Shown here piece after piece: positions 4,452 to 53,971 of a stretch of DNA of 64,000 bases. Source of the DNA: Phycisphaerae bacterium (GTDB lineage: Bacteria > Planctomycetota > Phycisphaerae > Sedimentisphaerales > Anaerobacaceae); the NCBI GenBank assembly GCA_021736645.1, contig JAIPFM010000131.1:1-64000 (forward strand), in the 5' to 3' direction. Position 1 is the first letter of the stretch; every line of letters begins with the position of its first letter. The position numbers and the translations under genes are program-made. The notes below the pieces were generated by a model. It had not been told where the DNA came from. It saw only the letters and a program-made list of their open reading frames with translations, and ran no database searches.

Positions 4452-6596
4452 ATGATGCTGCTCCACATAGAATCACTTTCGCGGGAAGTCACCAAATCCC
4501 AACTGTTGGGCTTCCTGAATTCGGTCCCGGGCATGGCAGGGCGGAGCGTGGGACGCATTGACCTGTGGGCCGGCAAGGCCGTGATCGACATCCCGGATGA
4601 TTGGCAGGTCCGCCTGGTCAAGGCCCTCGATGGCCGGACACTCGGGGGGCGTCGAGTGCGCGTCTGGGCAGAGAGCCCTGGAAGTGCCTCGGATAACGGT
4701 GACTCTCATTTTGAGCAATTGGCCAACCTGCTCGAATTGGAGCATCAGGAGGAAGCAAGGGAGGCGGTCGAGCGGGGCCGGAGACTGTCATACGCGGATG
4801 CCGAACGATCGGGAACCAGTTTGGTGGACCTGGTGATTGCAGACGAGGATACCGGTCTTGGAGGTCGGCACATACTGCAGCTCGCCAAATGCAAGCGCTC
4901 GCCATTGCCCTGGACACGTCTTGGCGTTGGCAGCCCCATCGTGCTCTCTCCTGATAAAGGCCAAGGGGCGGTTCAGTACAGAGGTGTGATTTGTCAACGT
5001 GCTGAAGGATTCCTGCGCGTGGCCCTGGGACACATGTCGGACGATCTGGCTGAGTATGAAACGTGGCGTCTGGACCTTTCCAGTGACGAAGTGGCCATGC
5101 AAAGGCAACAGGCCGCGCTGCAGCGTGTGCGCCTGGCCCAAGCGGAACGCCTGGCAGAGCTGCGTGACATTCTACTGGGCAAGCGCACACCGGAGTTCGA
5201 TCCTGAACAGGAGGAGCCTGTACTTGATGCCGGGCTCAATGAAACTCAACGCCAGGCTGTACGGTTCGCGTTGGCTGCCCGCGATGTGGCGCTGCTTCAC
5301 GGGCCGCCGGGCACTGGCAAGACAACGGCCGTCATAGAACTGATCCGCAGGGCGGTCCGCCGCGGTGACAAGGTCCTGGCCTGCGCACCCAGCAATCTGG
5401 CTGTGGACAACATCTTTGAACGCCTGCTGGACGCTGGTGAGCGAGTGGTTCGATTGGGTCATCCGGCCCGTGTGACGGCCGATCTTCGCGCTCACACGCT
5501 GGATCTGTTGGTGGAGGCGCATCCGGATGTCAAGCTGGCCCGCAAGCTGGTCAAGGAGGCCATGGGCAAGTTTCGGCAGGCAGGCCGCTATACCCGGGCC
5601 AAGCCTGTGCCTGGTTCGCGTCAGGAGATCCGGCAGGAGGCCAAGGATCTATTGGCCGATGCGCGGCGTTTGGAGGCGCAGGCCGTGGAGCATATTCTCG
5701 ATAACGCCGATGTGCTATGTGCGACCACAACCGCTCTGGGCAACGAGGTGTTGGGCAGGCGGCGATTCGATTTGGGTGTCATCGACGAGGCATGTCAGAG
5801 TACTGAGCCGGGGTGCTGGGTACCTGTGCTCAGATGTGACAAGGTGGTGCTGGCCGGCGACCATTGCCAGCTGCCTCCGACCGTGGTGAGCCGGGAGGCT
5901 GCTGCGGGGGGGCTTGGTGTGAGCCTGTTCGAGCGGCTGATGCTTCTTTTCAACGGTTCGATCGCCCGCCAACTGACTGTTCAGTACCGCATGCACCAGG
6001 CGATCATGGACTTTTCGTCACGAGAGTTTTATGAGGCCAGGCTGCAGGCTGACACGTCTGTGTGTGCGCATGTATTGGCCGATCTCCCAGGGGTGGGTGC
6101 CGGCTGCGCCACTGAGCGTCCCATTGAGTTCATTGACACGGCCGGCGCAAGCTTCGACGAAGAGGTGGAGCCCGATGGTGAGAGCCGCCTGAATCGGCAT
6201 GAAGCGGCGCTTGTGTGCTCCAAGGTGCAGGGGCTCCTGGACTGCGGCGTGGCAGCGTGCGACATCGCGGTCATCGCCACCTATGCTGCGCAGGTGCGGC
6301 TCCTTCGCGAGCAGTTGCCTGTGCCGGGCCTGGAGGTCGACAGTGTCGATGGCTTCCAGGGACGGGAGAAGGAAGCCGTGATCATCTCGCTTGTGCGATC
6401 CAATCCCCGGGCCGAGATCGGTTTCCTGCAGGATGTGCGTCGAATGAATGTGGCCATGACGCGTGCGCGCAGGAAATTGCTGCTGGTGGGCGACAGTGCG
6501 ACATTGTGCGCCCACCCGTTTTATCGCCGTATGATCGATTACTTCGACACACTCGGGGCCTACAGGACCGTCTGGGAAGAGGACGACACGGTCTGA
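4452..6596 (+). CDS. SF1B DNA/RNA helicase (IGHMBP2/UPF1-like) with N-terminal DbpA-type RNA-binding domain
   Basis: A 714-residue cytoplasmic ATP-dependent helicase. Residues about 3-75 look like the RRM-like DbpA RNA-binding domain (IGRIDLW-type strand written here as VGRIDLWAGKAVIDIP, ending RVRVW). The helicase core has Walker A GPPGTGKTT at 284-292, motif Ia CAPSNLAVDN, the DEAC box from D445 (IDEACQS), GDHCQLPPTV (motif III), QYRMH (motif IV), VDSVDGFQGREK (motif V) and VAMTRARRKLLLVGD (motif VI), so all ATPase motifs are intact. The family unwinds duplex DNA or RNA 5' to 3'; the head domain suggests a structured-RNA substrate, which is inference. No clear ribosome binding site precedes the tandem ATGATG start. 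Neighbours offer no functional link. Confidence 0.9.
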   Translation: MMLLHIESLSREVTKSQLLGFLNSVPGMAGRSVGRIDLWAGKAVIDIPDDWQVRLVKALDGRTLGGRRVRVWAESPGSASDNGDSHFEQLANLLELEHQEEAREAVERGRRLSYADAERSGTSLVDLVIADEDTGLGGRHILQLAKCKRSPLPWTRLGVGSPIVLSPDKGQGAVQYRGVICQRAEGFLRVALGHMSDDLAEYETWRLDLSSDEVAMQRQQAALQRVRLAQAERLAELRDILLGKRTPEFDPEQEEPVLDAGLNETQRQAVRFALAARDVALLHGPPGTGKTTAVIELIRRAVRRGDKVLACAPSNLAVDNIFERLLDAGERVVRLGHPARVTADLRAHTLDLLVEAHPDVKLARKLVKEAMGKFRQAGRYTRAKPVPGSRQEIRQEAKDLLADARRLEAQAVEHILDNADVLCATTTALGNEVLGRRRFDLGVIDEACQSTEPGCWVPVLRCDKVVLAGDHCQLPPTVVSREAAAGGLGVSLFERLMLLFNGSIARQLTVQYRMHQAIMDFSSREFYEARLQADTSVCAHVLADLPGVGAGCATERPIEFIDTAGASFDEEVEPDGESRLNRHEAALVCSKVQGLLDCGVAACDIAVIATYAAQVRLLREQLPVPGLEVDSVDGFQGREKEAVIISLVRSNPRAEIGFLQDVRRMNVAMTRARRKLLLVGDSATLCAHPFYRRMIDYFDTLGAYRTVWEEDDTV

Positions 6597-6837
6597 CCCA
6601 TGAGCACGGAGCATGGCGGTAAATCTGCGTCAAAGTGACGAATTCAGTCTAAAGTGAGAATCACATGTAACCTGCCCGCTGGAAAATGATACTACCTTCT
6701 TAATATAGTCTAGAGTCTTTCCTGGAGGTGCGAATCCTGGGGATTCCCGATGATATGAAGAAACTGGTGTGTTTTGCCAGGGCGTCTTAGACACAAATTT
6801 TCACTTTGATGGACAATCTCATGTTGAGGAGATGTCA

Positions 6838-9800
6838 ATGCTACGAAGAAAAATAGTCTTCTCGACAGTCGTCGCGGCTGCCTCTGCCTTGATCATCTGG
6901 CAGGTTGGCTTCGAAACACCCGGTTACAGTGGGGTCAGCGAGGCAAATGTTCCTCCGGCGAGCGAGACTCAAGACAGCTCACCCCAGGCGCCTTCCGCTC
7001 CGGTCGAGCGCGTCAAGCGCCCCAAGGCCAATGTACGGCCTCAAAAGAAGCAACCCAAGCTTTCCCCCGCCAGACAGCAGGCAGAGTTGGCCTCGGACGC
7101 GTCCGATCCCTTGCCGCTCGACACCTCTGTGGACCAGAATGAACCAATGGATCCGAACACACAGCTCGAAGCCATTAATCTGCAAAGCGTGGAGATGAAG
7201 TTCATTATCCCCAAAATCGCAGATTGGACTGGGAAAACCGTGATACCCGATGACGGGATTATGCGTCTGAAGATCTCGATTTACGCGCCCCGGATGCTGC
7301 CGCGGGCCAAGGCCCTGGAAAAAATCTATGGTGCCCTGCGCATGCAGGGCTATGTGGCTGAAGAGTCCGGTGAGACGGTCTACCTGAAACCCACGGGCAC
7401 TGCCAAACTGGGATTGGTGCCCACGGTTCTGCCCGGTCAAGCCCTTGCCAGTATTGAAAACAGAGAGCAGGTCGTGCAGAAGTTCTTCAAGCTCAACCAT
7501 TACAGCCCGGGCCAGATGGCCCAAATCATCCAACCCCTGGTCAGTGAGAACAGTCACGTCAGCGCGGATGAAAATGCCGGTACCCTGCTCGTCATAGACA
7601 CGGTGGCCACACTCATGCGCATCGAGGTGATCATTACCCAGTTTGACATTGTCCAGGGCACAGAAAGCGTGACCGAGATATTCGAAATCCGCCACCGTGA
7701 TCCCGAGAGCATTGTGGCGCTGCTGCACGTACTCCTGGCCAAGGGCCCGGCGCCCGAGGCCGCGGTCAGTACCAAGATGTCTCGGTCCACCGCCGTGGCC
7801 AGCAATCGGGCCAAGGGCAGGCCTGCCAAGCCTGGCAAGTCTGTCCCTGCAGCCACGGCCACCTCGGTGGTGGTGAGTCGAGGTACCCAAACCATGACAC
7901 TGCTGGCCGAACCGCGGTACAACTGGATCATTGCGCGGGCCTCTGAGGATGACCTGAAGATCATACGCCAGTGGATTGAACGGCTCGACAAGGCCGTACC
8001 CACGGTGATGGCCGAGGATTCCCTGGCCGACATAGAAAACAAGAACCAGATCGTTCAGCGGTTTATCAGGTTGAAGAGCTACAGCGCGAGCCAGATGGTC
8101 AATATCATCCACCCCCTCATGGGGGAATCGGGGTATGCCACTGCAGACGAAGATGCAGGCACACTCCTGCTGATCGATACCGTGGAAAACCTCATGCGTG
8201 TCGAGGCGATCATTGCCCACTTTGACGAGGTTGAGGCCGAAAACATCATTGTCCAGGTCTTTGAGATTCGTCACCGCGAGCCTGAGGAGATCGTGACATT
8301 ACTGCAGACTTTGTTCAGTGCCGAACAGACCTCAAAGACCCAGGCCAAAAAAGACACCAGGAGTCGGCTGCCCAGACAGAAGCCGTTGGCCAAGACAGGC
8401 AGCACCACCTATGTGGGGGGCAGCACCAGTGGAAAAACACTGACGCTCATTTCCGAACCCCGCCAGAAATGGATCATTGCCAAGGCCTCGGAAGAAGACC
8501 TCGAGCAGATTGCCCAGTGGATTCAGAGGCTCGACACGCCCATTCCCACCATTTTGGCGGGTGAGCCGCTCACAGGTGTGGAAAACAAGAACCTGGTCGT
8601 ACAACGGTTTGTGACCCTTCAAAACTACAGCGCCGGCAAAATGGCGGAGATACTCACCCCCATGATGAACGAATCAGGCTATGTGACCGGCGACGAAGCC
8701 ACGGGCACTCTGGTGATTGTCGATACCGTGGAAAACCTGCTCCGCATCGAGGAGGTCATCGTGCGATTCGATGTCCCGGAGTCAGAGCACACCAACACCC
8801 AGGTATTCGAGATTGTACATCGAGAACCGGATGAGATTATCCAACTGCTCGAATCGCTGGTCGATCACGCCGCCGGTCCAGGGAGTACGAACAAAGGCGG
8901 TTCGTCGAGGAGCACCCGGTACTCGAGCGGCCAGCGACCCTCGTCAGCAAACAACCGAAACAGGAGCGGGGGCGCCACATCCACGATCGTGGGCACCAGC
9001 GGTAAATCCGTGGTCCTGGTTCCGGACCCGAGACAGAAGCTGATTGTCGCCAAGGGTTCGGCTGCAGACCTTGAAGAGATCGACCAATGGATTCGAAGGC
9101 TCGACAGGGCTGTCGCGACTCTGCTCTCCACACAATCCCTGGCCGATATCGAGAACAAGAACCAGGTTGTTCAGAAGTGTATCAAGCTCGAGACCTTCAG
9201 CCCGAATCGGATGGCGGATATCATTTTGCCGCTCATGGGTGAATCGGGTTATCTCAGCGCAGATGAAATCACCGGTAATCTGCTGCTGATCGACACGGTG
9301 GAGAACCTCATGCGCATCGAAACCATCATTGCCCAATTCGATGTGCCGGAGGCAGAGGACACGATCACTGAAATACTCACCGTACGCAACGGCGATCCGT
9401 ACGAAATCGTCCAGTTGGTGCGCATGCTGCTCGGTGATGGCAACGGACGCACGCCTTCCGGCAACGGACGAAACACGAAATCGCCGCCCTCCACGTCACG
9501 GCGAACCACCGGCAGTTCGAATCTGTATCGCGGCAGTGCGGCGGTCACCGGTGCCAATTCGGTCCTGCTCGGCCCGAGCGATACCCAGGTGGTGCTGATC
9601 CCCGAACCCAAGCGGGGGTGGATCATCGCGCGTGCATCGGCCGAGGATATGCAGATGATTCGAGAGTGGATTGCCAAGCTCGATCTGCAGGACACGATGA
9701 AAAAAGAATACGAGACGGTCCCCATTACCTATGCCAATGTCCAGGAGGTGGCGGCCCATCTCAATGAGGCCCTGCAGAAGATGCCTGGAACGGAGCTCGA

Positions 9801-11706
9801 GACCAGCGTCCTGGTGCAGGCGCTCGATCAGGCCAGGCAGGTCGTGATCTTCGGACGCCAGGACCTGCGTGAGATGGTCAAGAAACTGATCGAGGAAATC
9901 GACGTACCGCCAGGGCAATTCCTGACCGAACACTTCAAGCTCGACTACGCGGATCCCGATCTCATCAAGAAGCACATCGACGACCTCTATGGCCTGGAAC
10001 GGGGGTTGAGCACGCAGCGTGCCAGCAGCAGCCGATCCGGCACAGGCCTGCCCACGGATTCAGTGAAGGTCATCTCGCATCTGTCTCTCAAGGAGGTGAC
10101 TGTCATTGCCTCGCCCGACACGATCGACAAGATCAGGCAGCAAATCAAGGGGTGGGACGTGCCCATCGATGTCAACGCGGTCAAGCCCAGAATCATCGAG
10201 CTCCACAATTCCGATACCGGCCAGATGGTGATCCTGCTCACCTCACTGTTCAGCAGAGAGGCTGCGAGCAGCCAGTTCTCCGCCTACGACTACCTCTTCG
10301 GCTTCGGTCATGAGGACAAAGAGAAGATCATCGGCCCCCTCTATGGGCAGCTCACCTTTGAGGAAGTACCGGGCACTAAGAAGATCATCGTCATCAGCAA
10401 CATTCCCGAGGCCTATGACGTGGTCGAAGATCTCATCCGAAAGCTGGATCAGGAGGAAATGGCCGAGGTGCCGAAGGTCATCAAGCTCAAGTACCGGGAT
10501 GCCGAAACACTCGCCATGCATTTGAACGCCATGTTCAATGAAACCGGGACCAGCGCCGGGATCCAGCTCTCTCAACGTGGGCTGCGCGACTACTCCATGG
10601 ACGAGACCCAGGACAATGCCGGCAACCCCAACAATCGCAGCACCACCGCAAACGGAAGCAACAACAACCAAGGCAATACCACCGAATACCGGCCCTGGTG
10701 GACCACGGGCCGGGAGGCCATCGGTGAAGGGGCCATCAGCAATGTGATCGGGCGCGCGCGTTTTATCCCGGACACCTACAGTCGATCCATCCTTGCCCTG
10801 GCCCCGCCGGAGTTCATGGAGAATATCGAGCAGATGATCAACGAGCTGGACACGCCGGGCAAGCAGGTCATGATCAAGGTCATCATCGTCCAGGTCGACC
10901 ACCGCAACATGACGTCCCTGGGCACACAATTTTCATCGGACAGCACCAGGTGGTCGACCGTGGACCACGAAAACGCAATCATCGCCCGCAATGCGCTCGG
11001 CCTGCTCGAACAGCACGGAGCCCTGGTATTCGGCGCAGGCAGCGATGCAGGCAGCCGTTCCGAAATCTCCGTGGGTGCCGACATCTCCGTGCTGCTCGAT
11101 TTTCTGGTCAAGGAGCTTGACGCCCAGATCCTCAATCAGCAGACGCTGTGGACCAAGGACAACGAGGAAGCCGAGTTCTTCAAGGGCCAGCGCGTCGGCT
11201 TCCAGACACGCGTGTCCATCTCCGATACGGGCGGGCGCGCGACCTCTGATTTCGCGTACGAAAAGGTCGGTATGATCCTGCGTACCCGGCCCAGCATCAC
11301 ACCGGAAATGAACGTGGACATGATCATCAATGTGGTCCTCTCGCAACTGACCTCCGAGATCATCAACAGCCAGCGCGTTCGGACCGAGATGGATACCACC
11401 ACCAACATGATCGTGGAGGACGGCCAGACACTGATGCTCGGGGGTATGCTCTTCCAGGAGGACAGCCAGACCCGGAGAAAGGTGCCGCTCCTGGGCGATC
11501 TGCCGCTGATCGGCGGCCTGTTCCGCCACAAAGAGAACGTCCTGGCCAACCACGAGTTGTTGATCTTTGTCACGCCGCATGTGGTGGATGGGAACGAAGG
11601 CACCTCGCCTGCGGCACTCGACGAAATCGAGCAGTCCAAGGCCCGCCTGCGCACCGTTCAGGAGGGACTGGAAAAGAATCGGTCTCAGTCACCCGATGGA
11701 GGATAG
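6838..11706 (+). CDS. Giant secretin (GspD/PilQ superfamily) with four tandem N-module repeats
   Basis: An outer-membrane secretin of about 1622 residues, more than twice the usual GspD length. The ATG at 6838 is preceded by GAGGAG at good spacing and gives a signal/anchor helix at residues about 8-24; in-frame upstream ATGs lack this. After a basic, Pro-rich spacer come four copies of a module (residues 203-395, 396-577, 578-767, 768-955), each with LADIENKNQVVQ-, MAxIIxPLMxESGY- and DTVENLMRIE-type motifs followed by a Ser/Arg/Gly-rich loop. Further diverged N-type domains follow, then a C-terminal secretin beta-barrel domain (about 1340-1590) with VPLLGDLPLIGGLF near 1549. It forms the multimeric gate of type II secretion or type IV pili. 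No other secretion gene lies nearby. Confidence 0.9.
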   Translation: MLRRKIVFSTVVAAASALIIWQVGFETPGYSGVSEANVPPASETQDSSPQAPSAPVERVKRPKANVRPQKKQPKLSPARQQAELASDASDPLPLDTSVDQNEPMDPNTQLEAINLQSVEMKFIIPKIADWTGKTVIPDDGIMRLKISIYAPRMLPRAKALEKIYGALRMQGYVAEESGETVYLKPTGTAKLGLVPTVLPGQALASIENREQVVQKFFKLNHYSPGQMAQIIQPLVSENSHVSADENAGTLLVIDTVATLMRIEVIITQFDIVQGTESVTEIFEIRHRDPESIVALLHVLLAKGPAPEAAVSTKMSRSTAVASNRAKGRPAKPGKSVPAATATSVVVSRGTQTMTLLAEPRYNWIIARASEDDLKIIRQWIERLDKAVPTVMAEDSLADIENKNQIVQRFIRLKSYSASQMVNIIHPLMGESGYATADEDAGTLLLIDTVENLMRVEAIIAHFDEVEAENIIVQVFEIRHREPEEIVTLLQTLFSAEQTSKTQAKKDTRSRLPRQKPLAKTGSTTYVGGSTSGKTLTLISEPRQKWIIAKASEEDLEQIAQWIQRLDTPIPTILAGEPLTGVENKNLVVQRFVTLQNYSAGKMAEILTPMMNESGYVTGDEATGTLVIVDTVENLLRIEEVIVRFDVPESEHTNTQVFEIVHREPDEIIQLLESLVDHAAGPGSTNKGGSSRSTRYSSGQRPSSANNRNRSGGATSTIVGTSGKSVVLVPDPRQKLIVAKGSAADLEEIDQWIRRLDRAVATLLSTQSLADIENKNQVVQKCIKLETFSPNRMADIILPLMGESGYLSADEITGNLLLIDTVENLMRIETIIAQFDVPEAEDTITEILTVRNGDPYEIVQLVRMLLGDGNGRTPSGNGRNTKSPPSTSRRTTGSSNLYRGSAAVTGANSVLLGPSDTQVVLIPEPKRGWIIARASAEDMQMIREWIAKLDLQDTMKKEYETVPITYANVQEVAAHLNEALQKMPGTELETSVLVQALDQARQVVIFGRQDLREMVKKLIEEIDVPPGQFLTEHFKLDYADPDLIKKHIDDLYGLERGLSTQRASSSRSGTGLPTDSVKVISHLSLKEVTVIASPDTIDKIRQQIKGWDVPIDVNAVKPRIIELHNSDTGQMVILLTSLFSREAASSQFSAYDYLFGFGHEDKEKIIGPLYGQLTFEEVPGTKKIIVISNIPEAYDVVEDLIRKLDQEEMAEVPKVIKLKYRDAETLAMHLNAMFNETGTSAGIQLSQRGLRDYSMDETQDNAGNPNNRSTTANGSNNNQGNTTEYRPWWTTGREAIGEGAISNVIGRARFIPDTYSRSILALAPPEFMENIEQMINELDTPGKQVMIKVIIVQVDHRNMTSLGTQFSSDSTRWSTVDHENAIIARNALGLLEQHGALVFGAGSDAGSRSEISVGADISVLLDFLVKELDAQILNQQTLWTKDNEEAEFFKGQRVGFQTRVSISDTGGRATSDFAYEKVGMILRTRPSITPEMNVDMIINVVLSQLTSEIINSQRVRTEMDTTTNMIVEDGQTLMLGGMLFQEDSQTRRKVPLLGDLPLIGGLFRHKENVLANHELLIFVTPHVVDGNEGTSPAALDEIEQSKARLRTVQEGLEKNRSQSPDGG
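7444..9702 (+). repeat. Four in-frame tandem repeats inside the secretin gene (about 546-579 bp each)
   Basis: Copies start at 7444, 8023, 8569 and 9139. Each encodes the same order of motifs: IENKNQ, YSxxQM, ESGYxxADE, GTLLLIDTVENLMR, FEIRHREPEEIV, a variable hydrophilic loop, and EPRxxWIIAxASEEDLxxIxQWIxRLD. The DNA is clearly diverged, so duplication is not very recent, but length and register are well kept. The variable loops are the least conserved part. Confidence 0.85.
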
Positions 11707-11823
11707 AAGGGGGAGGATAGGCGCCAGGAATCAACCAACCTTCTGTTTGCCGGACTATTTGTCTTTTGAACCATCCCATGCGAGTGAGAGAGTTGTGCGA
11801 AGCGATGGTTATGTTGGAGCGTC

Positions 11824-14337
<2,514 letters not shown>

Positions 14338-50851: not shown

Positions 50852-53800
50852 ATGATGAAGACAGCCGTTGTAGCGATGATACTATGTCTGAGTGGCGGGG
50901 CAGTGCAGGCTCAGGGACGATTGGCATTTAAAGGGGCAGAGCTGAATGCCGTCTCCATGGCTATCAAGGATTTGAAATCGACCTATCCCGGCACCTATGA
51001 CACGGAGGGGGCGTTTTCAGAGAGCATCGACAGGATTGCGAAGATGCCGTTGGGACAGACGCGGGACGCAGCCCTGGAGAGGTTGCAGCGTCAGGCCCTG
51101 TTGAGCAATCCGCTTCTTGGTTTCGGCCGTCTGTTGCTGGTGCGCCGCAAGAGTCAGGGCGAAGAGGGGTTCCCGGCGAACTGGCAGGGCAACGAAAAGC
51201 TGAGACGCACGGGATACACGAACGATATCGCCATGCTTTCGCTGGACGATCCCAAGAACGAACTCAGAACGGTTTACCGTCCAGGCGGGGGACAGTTCGT
51301 GGGCGATTTGGACCTGCATTTCGACGGTACAAGGCTGTTGTTTTCCATGCCCGGAGAAAACGGGCGATGGCAGGTTCATGAGTTGACGATCGATCCTGAC
51401 CGGATGGCCAGAGGCGGCGATCGGGTGCCTGCGGAGCTGGCACTGATACCGGATAACGATGTGGACAATTATGACGCCTGCTATCTGCCGGACGGCAATA
51501 TTCTCTTTACCTCCACAGCGACATTTACAGGCGTGCCCTGCGTGCAGGGGGATTCCTATGTGGCCAATATCTACAGACTCGACGTGGCCACAGGCAGCAT
51601 TCGAAGGCTGACCTTTGACCAGGACCACAACTGGAATCCGACTGTGCTGAACAACGGGCGTGTCATGTACCTGCGCTGGGAATACTCCGATCTGCCGCAC
51701 TTTGTGGCACGCATCCTGTTTCACATGAATCCGGACGGCACCAATCAATCGGAGTATTACGGCAGCGGTTCCTATTGGCCGAATTCATTCTTTTACCCGC
51801 GTGCGATTCCGGATCATCCGACTCAGGTCGTGGGTATTGTCACAGGGCATCACGGGGTCAAGCGCGCCGGGGAACTGGTGATTCTGGATCCGGCCCTGGG
51901 ACGTCACGAGGCAGACGGCGTGGTGCAGCGCATCCCGGGGTACGGGAAAAAGGTGGAGCCCCTGATTGTCGATCAACTGGTGGATGACAGCTGGCCCAAG
52001 TTTCTGCATCCCTATCCCTTGAGCTCCAAGTACTTCCTGGTCTCTGCCAAGCTGACCCAGGCGGCCCCCTGGAGCCTCTATCTGGTGGACGTTTTCGACA
52101 ATATGCTGCTGTTGAAAACCGAGGCAGGATTTGACCTGCTGGAACCCACCCCCCTCAAGAAAAGCAAGGTCCCGCCTGCCATACCCAGCCAGGTGGACAC
52201 CACCAGGAAATACGCGACCGTGTACATGGAAGACATCTACAAGGGCCCTGGACTCTCCGGCGTGCCGCGGGGCACGGTGAAGACCCTGCGTCTGATCACG
52301 TATCACTTTTCCTACCGGAACATGGGCGGCCAGCAGGACCCGATCGGTGTGGACGGGCCCTGGGATGTGAAGTGTGTGCTGGGCACGGTGCCCGTGCACA
52401 CGGACGGGTCGGCCATGTTCGAGGTGCCTGCCAACCTGCCTATCGCGTTCCAGCCGCTGGATGAAGAGGGCAAGGCCATTCAGTTGATGCGAAGCTGGAG
52501 CACGGCCATGCCCGGAGAGACGGTATCCTGTGTGGGCTGTCATGAAAAACAGAGCGGTGCCCCGGTCGTGACACAGACGATTGCTTCACGCATGATCCCC
52601 TCGCAGATTACGCCCTGGTACGGTGAGGTGCGGGGGTTTTCATTCAAGCGGGAGATCGAACCCCTTGTGGACAAATACTGTGCCGAGTGTCACGACAACC
52701 CGGACACGACTGAAGGAACATCCACGGCCCCGGCCATGGCTGATGCGTACATGTTTCTGCGCCGTGTGATTCGCACGCCCACCATGGAACCGGATATGCA
52801 CGTGTGCGAACCCTACGAATTCCATGCGGACACCACGGAACTGGTGCGCATGCTGCAAACCGGGCACCATGATGTCAAGCTCGATCCGGAGGCCTGGGAT
52901 CGACTCATCACCTGGATCGACCTCAATACACCGTTTCACGGGAGCTGGACGGAAAATGTGGGGCGCGAAAGGATGCGTGATCTCGTGGAACGTCGGCGTG
53001 ACCTGATGCAGCGATATGCAGGGATCAACGGCATCACCGAGGACCCCGATGCCCTGGCTGCGGAAAAGCCGCCCGAGCAGCAGGCCGAGCAGATGAAGGC
53101 GGTCGCGGATCGGGTGTGGGTCGCACAAGACCAGATCAGGATGGTCACGCTCGACTCCGCAGTACTGCGTCCGAGCACGCGCATCATCGAGGTGGGCTAC
53201 GGTGTCGAACTCCCCATGGTGCGCATTGAGGCCGGCGAGTTTCTCAAGGGTGAGCAGCATGTCCGGATCCATGAGCCGTTCTGGATGGCTGCGCATGAGA
53301 CCAGCAACCGACTGTATGCCCTGTTCGATGCGGATCACGACAGCCGGCTGGAACCTGGAGATTACCTTCACTTTGACCCGGTCAAGAGGGGGTATCCATT
53401 GAACGAGCCGGATCAGCCCGTGGTCAAGGTGTCGTGGGAAAGGGCCGTACAGTTTTGTGCGTGGCTCAGTGACAGGACAGGGCTGACTGTGACCCTGCCG
53501 ACCGAAGCCCAGTGGGAATGGGCCTGCAGAGCCGGTTCGAGCGGGACGTTCTGGTACGACGATATGGACCAGGGATTCACACAGTACGACAACCTGGCAG
53601 ACGCACAGTTAACGAACAATACCCGGTACGAAGGCAAGCGGTGGCAATGGCGGCCCGGCATCATGACCGAGGACGATGGGTATCGGGTGTCTTCGCCAGT
53701 GGGATCGTTCAAGCCGAACCCGTGGGGGCTTTATGACATGCACGGCAATGTGGCGGAATGGACGAGTTCCGTGTATCGGTCCGGTGTGCGCATGAAGCCC

Positions 53801-53971
53801 ACATTAAGGGTCGTTCGCGGCGGGTCGTGGGCGGACCGTCCCAAGTGGGCGGGCGCCAGTGTTCGCTGGGGGTACAGAGAATTTCAGAAGGTCTACAACG
53901 TGGGATTCCGGATCATTGTCACAGACGAGCAGAAAAAGTACACGGTAGATAAAGTGTCACCCGCACCCTGA
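50852..53971 (+). CDS. Exported dihaem HzsA-like protein fused to an FGE-sulfatase (SUMF1-like) domain
   Basis: A 1039-residue protein with a signal peptide ending near VQAQ. Residues about 80-540 resemble the propeller of hydrazine-synthase-alpha-like proteins (ILFTSTATFTGVPC, RRLTFDQDHNWNPTVLNNGRVMYLRWEY, FFYPRAIPDHPTQ, VTGHHGVKRAGELVILD, YHFSYRNMGG). Two c-type haem motifs follow: C560-VG-CH and C610-AE-CH. From about 785 a formylglycine-generating-enzyme-like domain begins (MVRIEAGEFLKG, VSWERAVQFCAWLSDRTG, LPTEAQWEWACRAG, NVAEWTSS, VVRGGSW, NVGFRI). The usual catalytic cysteine pair is not apparent, so this end is probably a binding fold. The protein likely handles redox in the periplasm. 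Anammox chemistry is not implied. Confidence 0.85.
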   Translation: MMKTAVVAMILCLSGGAVQAQGRLAFKGAELNAVSMAIKDLKSTYPGTYDTEGAFSESIDRIAKMPLGQTRDAALERLQRQALLSNPLLGFGRLLLVRRKSQGEEGFPANWQGNEKLRRTGYTNDIAMLSLDDPKNELRTVYRPGGGQFVGDLDLHFDGTRLLFSMPGENGRWQVHELTIDPDRMARGGDRVPAELALIPDNDVDNYDACYLPDGNILFTSTATFTGVPCVQGDSYVANIYRLDVATGSIRRLTFDQDHNWNPTVLNNGRVMYLRWEYSDLPHFVARILFHMNPDGTNQSEYYGSGSYWPNSFFYPRAIPDHPTQVVGIVTGHHGVKRAGELVILDPALGRHEADGVVQRIPGYGKKVEPLIVDQLVDDSWPKFLHPYPLSSKYFLVSAKLTQAAPWSLYLVDVFDNMLLLKTEAGFDLLEPTPLKKSKVPPAIPSQVDTTRKYATVYMEDIYKGPGLSGVPRGTVKTLRLITYHFSYRNMGGQQDPIGVDGPWDVKCVLGTVPVHTDGSAMFEVPANLPIAFQPLDEEGKAIQLMRSWSTAMPGETVSCVGCHEKQSGAPVVTQTIASRMIPSQITPWYGEVRGFSFKREIEPLVDKYCAECHDNPDTTEGTSTAPAMADAYMFLRRVIRTPTMEPDMHVCEPYEFHADTTELVRMLQTGHHDVKLDPEAWDRLITWIDLNTPFHGSWTENVGRERMRDLVERRRDLMQRYAGINGITEDPDALAAEKPPEQQAEQMKAVADRVWVAQDQIRMVTLDSAVLRPSTRIIEVGYGVELPMVRIEAGEFLKGEQHVRIHEPFWMAAHETSNRLYALFDADHDSRLEPGDYLHFDPVKRGYPLNEPDQPVVKVSWERAVQFCAWLSDRTGLTVTLPTEAQWEWACRAGSSGTFWYDDMDQGFTQYDNLADAQLTNNTRYEGKRWQWRPGIMTEDDGYRVSSPVGSFKPNPWGLYDMHGNVAEWTSSVYRSGVRMKPTLRVVRGGSWADRPKWAGASVRWGYREFQKVYNVGFRIIVTDEQKKYTVDKVSPAP

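Follow-up and report, generated by a model that had tools for sequence, protein, structure and literature searches.

The uninterrupted reading frame at positions 6838-11706 of the window (the whole stretch of 64,000 nucleotides that was analysed, part of the 70.7-kb contig C131 of a Phycisphaerae draft genome) encodes a protein of 1622 aa which, judged by its sequence, is a GspD-type outer-membrane secretin with a strongly lengthened N-terminal part. We consider it fairly probable that it represents a second GspD whose periplasmic tube consists of about 13 rings and which serves an inner-membrane platform encoded at an unlinked site.

Domain make-up of the expanded GspD

The frame starts with an ATG at 6838, immediately preceded by a GAGGAG ribosome-binding-like motif, and ends with a stop codon at 11706. 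Length and coordinates had been given exactly in an earlier sequence-only reading of this DNA. The NCBIfam model for GspD (TIGR02517) matches the full length of the protein with 531.3 bits at a cut-off of 351.35. The models for PilQ (TIGR02515, 208.8 at a cut-off of 284.35) and SctC (TIGR02516, 116.3 at 238.45) remain below their thresholds. Pfam detects 12 Secretin_N stretches (1.6e-97), a C-terminal Secretin gate (PF00263, aa 1424-1584, 130.8 bits, 4.9e-38) and a GspD N0 domain (aa 113-181), for which PF21305 reaches 27.1 at a cut-off of 27.0 in the whole protein and 33.7 (3.2e-08) on the N0 fragment alone. Nine of the 12 N domains were submitted singly and all nine match Secretin_N, with C2 and C3 below the curated cut-off and the other seven above it. 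Because twelve Secretin_N domains are present instead of the three (N1-N3) of a typical GspD, the protein is to be regarded as a variant of GspD. Linkage with GspE/F/G and GspC/L/M, which likewise characterises GspD, is absent on contig C131 but present for the copy on contig C199 of the same genome and for the homologues of relatives.

The domain order is anchor - N0 - (A-B) x 4 - C1 - C2 - C3 - C4 - gate (Table 1). N0 is the GspC-contacting domain in known type II secretion systems (T2SS). The four copies of 182-193 residues noticed in the first reading are located at aa 213-405, 406-587, 588-777 and 778-965. Each turns out to be a pair of N domains, namely a compact one (A) and one carrying an insert of 38-49 aa (B), and the further diverged N-type domains seen ahead of the gate correspond to C1-C4.

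Table 1. Positions of the features discussed (window coordinates unless a locus is named).
Feature	Position	Strand	Basis or remark
Expanded GspD-type secretin, 1622 aa	6838-11706	+	Pfam; TIGR02517
N-terminal hydrophobic signal/anchor, aa 1-26, without lipobox cysteine	6838-6915	+	Translation
N0 domain, aa 108-190	7159-7407	+	PF21305 on fragment; own HMM
Module 1, domain A	7474-7674	+	
Module 1, domain B, basic disordered insert	7675-8019	+	
Module 2, domain A	8053-8253	+	Beta-alpha-beta-beta-alpha in model
Module 2, domain B, basic insert	8254-8565	+	
Module 3, domain A	8599-8799	+	
Module 3, domain B, basic insert	8800-9135	+	
Module 4, domain A	9169-9369	+	
Module 4, domain B, basic insert	9370-9726	+	
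N domain C1	9727-9948	+	PF03958 3.2e-10
N domain C2, diverged	9952-10179	+	PF03958 4.9e-04, alone below cut-off; conserved in relatives
N domain C3, diverged	10180-10416	+	PF03958 5.3e-05, alone below cut-off; conserved in relatives
N domain C4, canonical N3 position, long Asn/Ser-rich insert	10429-10773	+	PF03958 3.8e-09
Secretin gate/barrel region (Pfam Secretin core 11107-11589)	10774-11637	+	PF00263 4.9e-38
Upstream neighbour, SMUBP2/UPF1-like helicase	4452-6596	+	
Downstream neighbour, double esterase plus malectin	11824-14316	-	
Arabinoxylan-type set: GH43, GH62, GH127, GH67, GH10, esterases, MFS_2 transporter	16952-38428	+	
TPR protein loci	L194:12844-13761; L242:5923-6792; L243:3996-4904; L240:15170-15892; L285:11291-12010		
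Compact ATPase cluster loci	L240:2180-9771 (G349); L284:1-3645 (G000, C109); L285; L287-L291		
Split GspD genes, genus g19	L087:7861-9702 and 9744-12104; L314:4092-5921 and 5931-8318		
f24 secretins, 3,285-5,086 aa, 31-52 N-type domains, one gate each	L295:1628-16129 (G117:C18); L308:1153-15720; L309:1308-16565	- (L295)	
Further f24 secretins of the same set	L310:7151-17071; L315:5582-16570; L316; L317		

Pairwise identity among the four modules amounts to 39-47% in amino acids, 52-59% in nucleotides and 35-45% at third codon positions. Owing to this divergence both chance and a duplication during assembly are excluded as the origin of the repeat.

The fold was evaluated in silico using AlphaFold models, all of them single chains. 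The model of modules 2-3 (38 sequences) has a mean pLDDT of 81 and shows beta-alpha-beta-beta-alpha in every N domain, with loops of low confidence in the B domains. A Foldseek search with this model returned exclusively secretins as top PDB matches. By VIA-align the N domains of XcpQ superimpose with Z 12.7 over 142 residues (rmsd 3.4), and an N domain of V. cholerae GspD fits a single A domain with 1.2 A over 60 residues. The tandem units are thus predicted to adopt the KH-like secretin N-domain fold, and the reservation, raised beforehand, that they might not be folded in this way was not borne out. The C-terminal half including the gate was modelled weakly (pLDDT 66.5) and left out of the fold searches.

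B-domain inserts across the family (n=120) have a median length of 49 aa and a net charge of +4, 98% being net positive, and are rich in Ser (24%), Gly (18%) and Arg (11%). They are placed centrally within the N fold, at a site that presumably corresponds to the loop and constriction region of PulD N3. In PulD, N3 carries an unresolved loop and a constriction (PMC6882859). The basic loops might form a brush in the channel lumen.

N-domain number among relatives

In relatives the gene for a GspD of this family normally closes an E-F-G-H-I-J-K-L-M-C-D operon, and complete members share, with few exceptions, the layout N0-(AB)n-C1-C2-C3-C4-gate (about a hundred loci, including some genes fetched twice). 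Named records in the family are metagenome-assembled genomes labelled Planctomycetota, Phycisphaerae or Sedimentisphaerales. Most relatives have n=1 (1050-1150 aa, N0 plus six N domains) and about a dozen n=2 (1240-1434 aa). The first reading had measured the protein against secretins of 500-800 residues; its giant size stands, but the 1050-1150 aa of its own clade are the fitting yardstick. In a tree of the common part (77 sequences) two-module proteins have at least two origins outside the clade of the window protein, and by this phylogeny lengthening of the GspD N part is a repeated event in relatives. Two genomes of genus g19 have a two-module GspD split into adjacent genes at about the same site in module 2, such that one reading frame encodes the N-terminal stack and the other the gate.

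The closest relatives of the window protein belong to genus g44. A six-module protein of 2093 aa in genome G294 is its sister (SH-aLRT 100), with 67% identity over the shared part. Further members have four modules (G349 and G350) or six (G354), while fragmentary ones in G351, G352 and G353 show three or more. All eight genomes carrying the expanded form also encode an ordinary GspD of the same family, and where the context is readable the expanded gene never lies within an ordinary T2SS operon. In a tree of the modules, those at the first position in g44 group with module 1 of the window protein and those at the last position with its module 4 (supports 85-92). This pairing across genera implies that the four-module layout probably predates the split between the window lineage and g44. 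The same tree suggests that the six-module proteins were made by copying the second module (supports 85-100). No synteny around the expanded gene was found between the window and g44.

In G294, G354, G353 and G349 a gene for a TPR protein adjoins the expanded gene on its 3' side, and a homologue follows a compact ATPase cluster in G284, where an expanded GspD was not found. These TPR proteins have one N-terminal hydrophobic segment without an obvious lipobox. TPR lipoproteins serve as pilotins of some secretins; for this context see also the work on TadD (PMC10499894). It is possible that the TPR protein acts as an assembly factor.

A search across Planctomycetota revealed still larger GspDs in f24, a sister family within the same class. 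There a related GspD is matched in 84 of 181 genomes, many of the matches lying in single reading frames of about 3,100-5,100 aa (up to 5,088). In one protein of 4,834 aa Pfam finds 35 Secretin_N stretches on 3,924 aa, and our own HMM 52 N-type domains at a spacing of ~78 aa; its coding region contains no DNA tandem repeats of module size. Other f24 proteins have 31-52 N-type domains, including one from a single-contig genome. Their genes are located 3' of GspK/L-like genes and 5' of a gene for a small conserved protein whose N-terminus resembles that of a lipoprotein. Like the window protein, they show a tandem expansion of N domains before a GspD-like gate, and they belong to a T2SS-type operon. 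Unlike it, they do not display the two-domain A-B signature, and their gate is only ~34% identical to that of the window protein. Amplification of N domains hence appears as a repeated theme in the class, of which the window protein is a milder form.

The survey also returned proteins of 2,345-2,677 aa in which a BlaR1-type M56 peptidase is fused to secretin parts. These comprise N domains and gate at L311:848-8020 (-), the gate with carboxypeptidase-regulatory-like domains at L313:2228-9262 (+), and N domains without gate at L312:6773-14803 (+).

Genomic context and competing readings

Profile searches of contig C131 detected no PF00437 ATPase, no T2SSG domain and no second secretin, and apart from the GspD itself the contig yielded no gene for secretion. 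The flanking genes are mostly polysaccharide-active, in line with the enzyme-rich neighbourhood described at the outset, and C131 carries further polysaccharide genes beyond the arabinoxylan-type set, whose enzymes are possible substrates of the expanded GspD. Also in the window, positions 50852-53971 encode a 1039-aa protein that combines a hydrazine synthase alpha middle domain with a formylglycine-generating-enzyme-like domain. The orthologue of the upstream helicase in a genome of the same genus (G002, contig C4) is 79% identical and is not followed by a GspD, which means that the window gene was either gained here or lost or moved there.

The window genome is a draft of 234 contigs (5.88 Mb, 88% complete, 4.2% contamination) with 10 secretins, 16 PF00437 matches of T2SS type and four GspG matches. 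Contig C199 contains a T2SS operon with GspE, F, four prepilin-type genes, K, L-, M- and C-like proteins (L, M and C assigned by operon position and weak profiles) and a GspD of 1065 aa that has a single A-B module and shares 52% identity with the window protein. Contig C109 carries a compact ATPase/GspF cluster, separate from this operon. The label orphan, given in the sequence-only reading, therefore holds locally but not genome-wide. A further cluster on contig C47 (GspE, F, pseudopilins and GspK, no secretin before the contig end) was considered as a lost partner and rejected because its E, F, J and K proteins are only distantly related to those of the operons that carry this GspD family. 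Another secretin of the same genome (L032:8204-12064, minus strand, 1286 aa) has a carboxypeptidase-regulatory-like domain; ahead of its gate Pfam detects no N domains.

Compact clusters with a short ATPase lacking the MshEN domain (E'), one or two GspF and prepilin-like genes occur in 45 of 89 genomes of the family (counted by ATPase) and, where readable, have no secretin of their own. The expanded GspD could thus serve this compact machine instead of the T2SS of C199, a reading we regard as rather unlikely though not negligible. It is favoured by the linkage in G349, where E', GspF and three prepilin-like genes are followed by the four-module GspD only 41 bases after the last prepilin-like gene, and by the TPR protein shared between the expanded loci and the E' cluster of G284; an E' orthologue with 62% identity resides on C109. 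However, most of the genomes with E' do not have an expanded GspD, and E' was not found in four of the eight genomes which do (G294, G350, G352 and G353, all drafts). An obligatory partnership is rejected for these reasons. Contig C109 itself ends inside the cluster, so that the gene downstream lies beyond the contig end. As platform of the expanded GspD both C199 and C109 come into question, the data favouring neither.

The regular presence of an ordinary GspD next to the expanded one, together with the missing T2SS neighbours in the window, G294 and G354, would also fit a spare or chimeric GspD with no channel of its own, forming mixed rings with the ordinary protein or acting as envelope tether or scaffold via its N part. 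We judge this improbable, as the gate is complete and conserved, the proteins of the window and G294 have remained similar over their shared part, and the four-module layout has been retained over a long divergence, unlike what is expected of a decaying spare copy. Least of all do we believe in an artefact of the draft assembly. Number of contigs, contamination estimate and the GC content of C131 (0.567 versus 0.50-0.55 in other sampled contigs) might point in this direction. Misassembly of a repeat is nevertheless refuted by the nucleotide divergence of the copies, as the first reading had demanded to be checked, and sister proteins with four and six modules exist in other assemblies. Origin from a contaminant contig is not supported either: the tetranucleotide profile of C131 correlates with the contigs of its own genome (mean 0.89), and the helicase next to the secretin gene has its close counterpart in the same genus.

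A proposed long tube for a wide periplasm

The preferred reading, a lengthened GspD on an unlinked platform, starts from tandem duplication of the two-domain A-B unit, which would have turned the usual N0 plus six N domains of the clade into N0 plus twelve. By homology to GspD, whose outer-membrane channel has 12-15 subunits, the expected complex of about 15 copies would consist of an outer-membrane gate and a tube of ~13 stacked rings, ~45-60 nm long, ending in N0 and docking onto the inner-membrane platform encoded elsewhere; the length estimate assumes ~3-4 nm per ring plus ~10 nm for the gate. The basic Ser/Gly/Arg-rich loops, one in each B domain, would sit along the inner wall of the tube or around it. 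Kept beside the operon-linked GspD, the expanded form would allow a T2SS-type machine to cross an enlarged planctomycete periplasm and to export folded enzymes. Reach across this compartment is, by analogy, the most likely role of the expanded GspD.

Among known systems PulD, XcpQ and EpsD are closest, sharing the best NCBIfam model and providing the best PDB matches. PulD measures 20 nm with four N rings, N0-N3 (PMC6882859), whereas the window protein has 12 instead of three N domains after N0. It moreover differs from T2SS GspDs by its four tandem two-domain modules with basic B inserts and by its position outside any T2SS operon. The operon-linked GspDs of its own class are direct homologues with the same domain order and the same B inserts but only one or two A-B modules, and they end a full T2SS operon. 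PilQ of Thermus thermophilus (N0-N5) has six rings and a length of 350 A (35 nm) and is believed to bridge the greater part of a wide periplasm (PMC5745081), which by analogy makes it plausible here that each copy forms a ring and that the channel reaches across such a compartment. Both proteins share a lengthened N part, seen in the window protein as sequence from which ~13 rings would follow; Thermus PilQ, in contrast, belongs to a pilus and DNA-uptake machine, and the window protein scores below the PilQ model. Our literature search returned no account of a planctomycete GspD with many N domains, which is not proof of novelty.

The planctomycete periplasm can be greatly enlarged (PMC5394234). 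In P. limnophila the inner membrane lies near the outer one at the crater-shaped structures (PMC5394234), so that a long tube is not obviously needed at those sites. Against our preferred reading also stands the lack of a linked platform within the window, and if the GspD of C199 is enough for secretion, the second copy is not accounted for by its length alone.

Beyond this single gene we propose, as a tentative idea, that in this class of Planctomycetota the number of secretin N domains is an evolvable ruler by which duplication fits the T2SS tube to an enlarged periplasm, with ~7, 9, 13 and 17 rings in the family of the window genome, 30-50 in f24, and a cationic brush of loops from the B rings. 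Four N rings are present in T2SS secretins of solved structure, and six in the longest secretin characterised in the literature searched. A naturally occurring set in which a single conserved gate is preceded by 7, 9, 13, 17 or as many as ~53 N-type domains, corresponding in f24 to tubes of more than 100 nm if the domains are stacked as rings, would make envelope spanning, and the relation of ring number to periplasm width, directly testable. It also hints at a route by which planctomycetes with an enlarged periplasm could secrete folded enzymes for polysaccharide breakdown.
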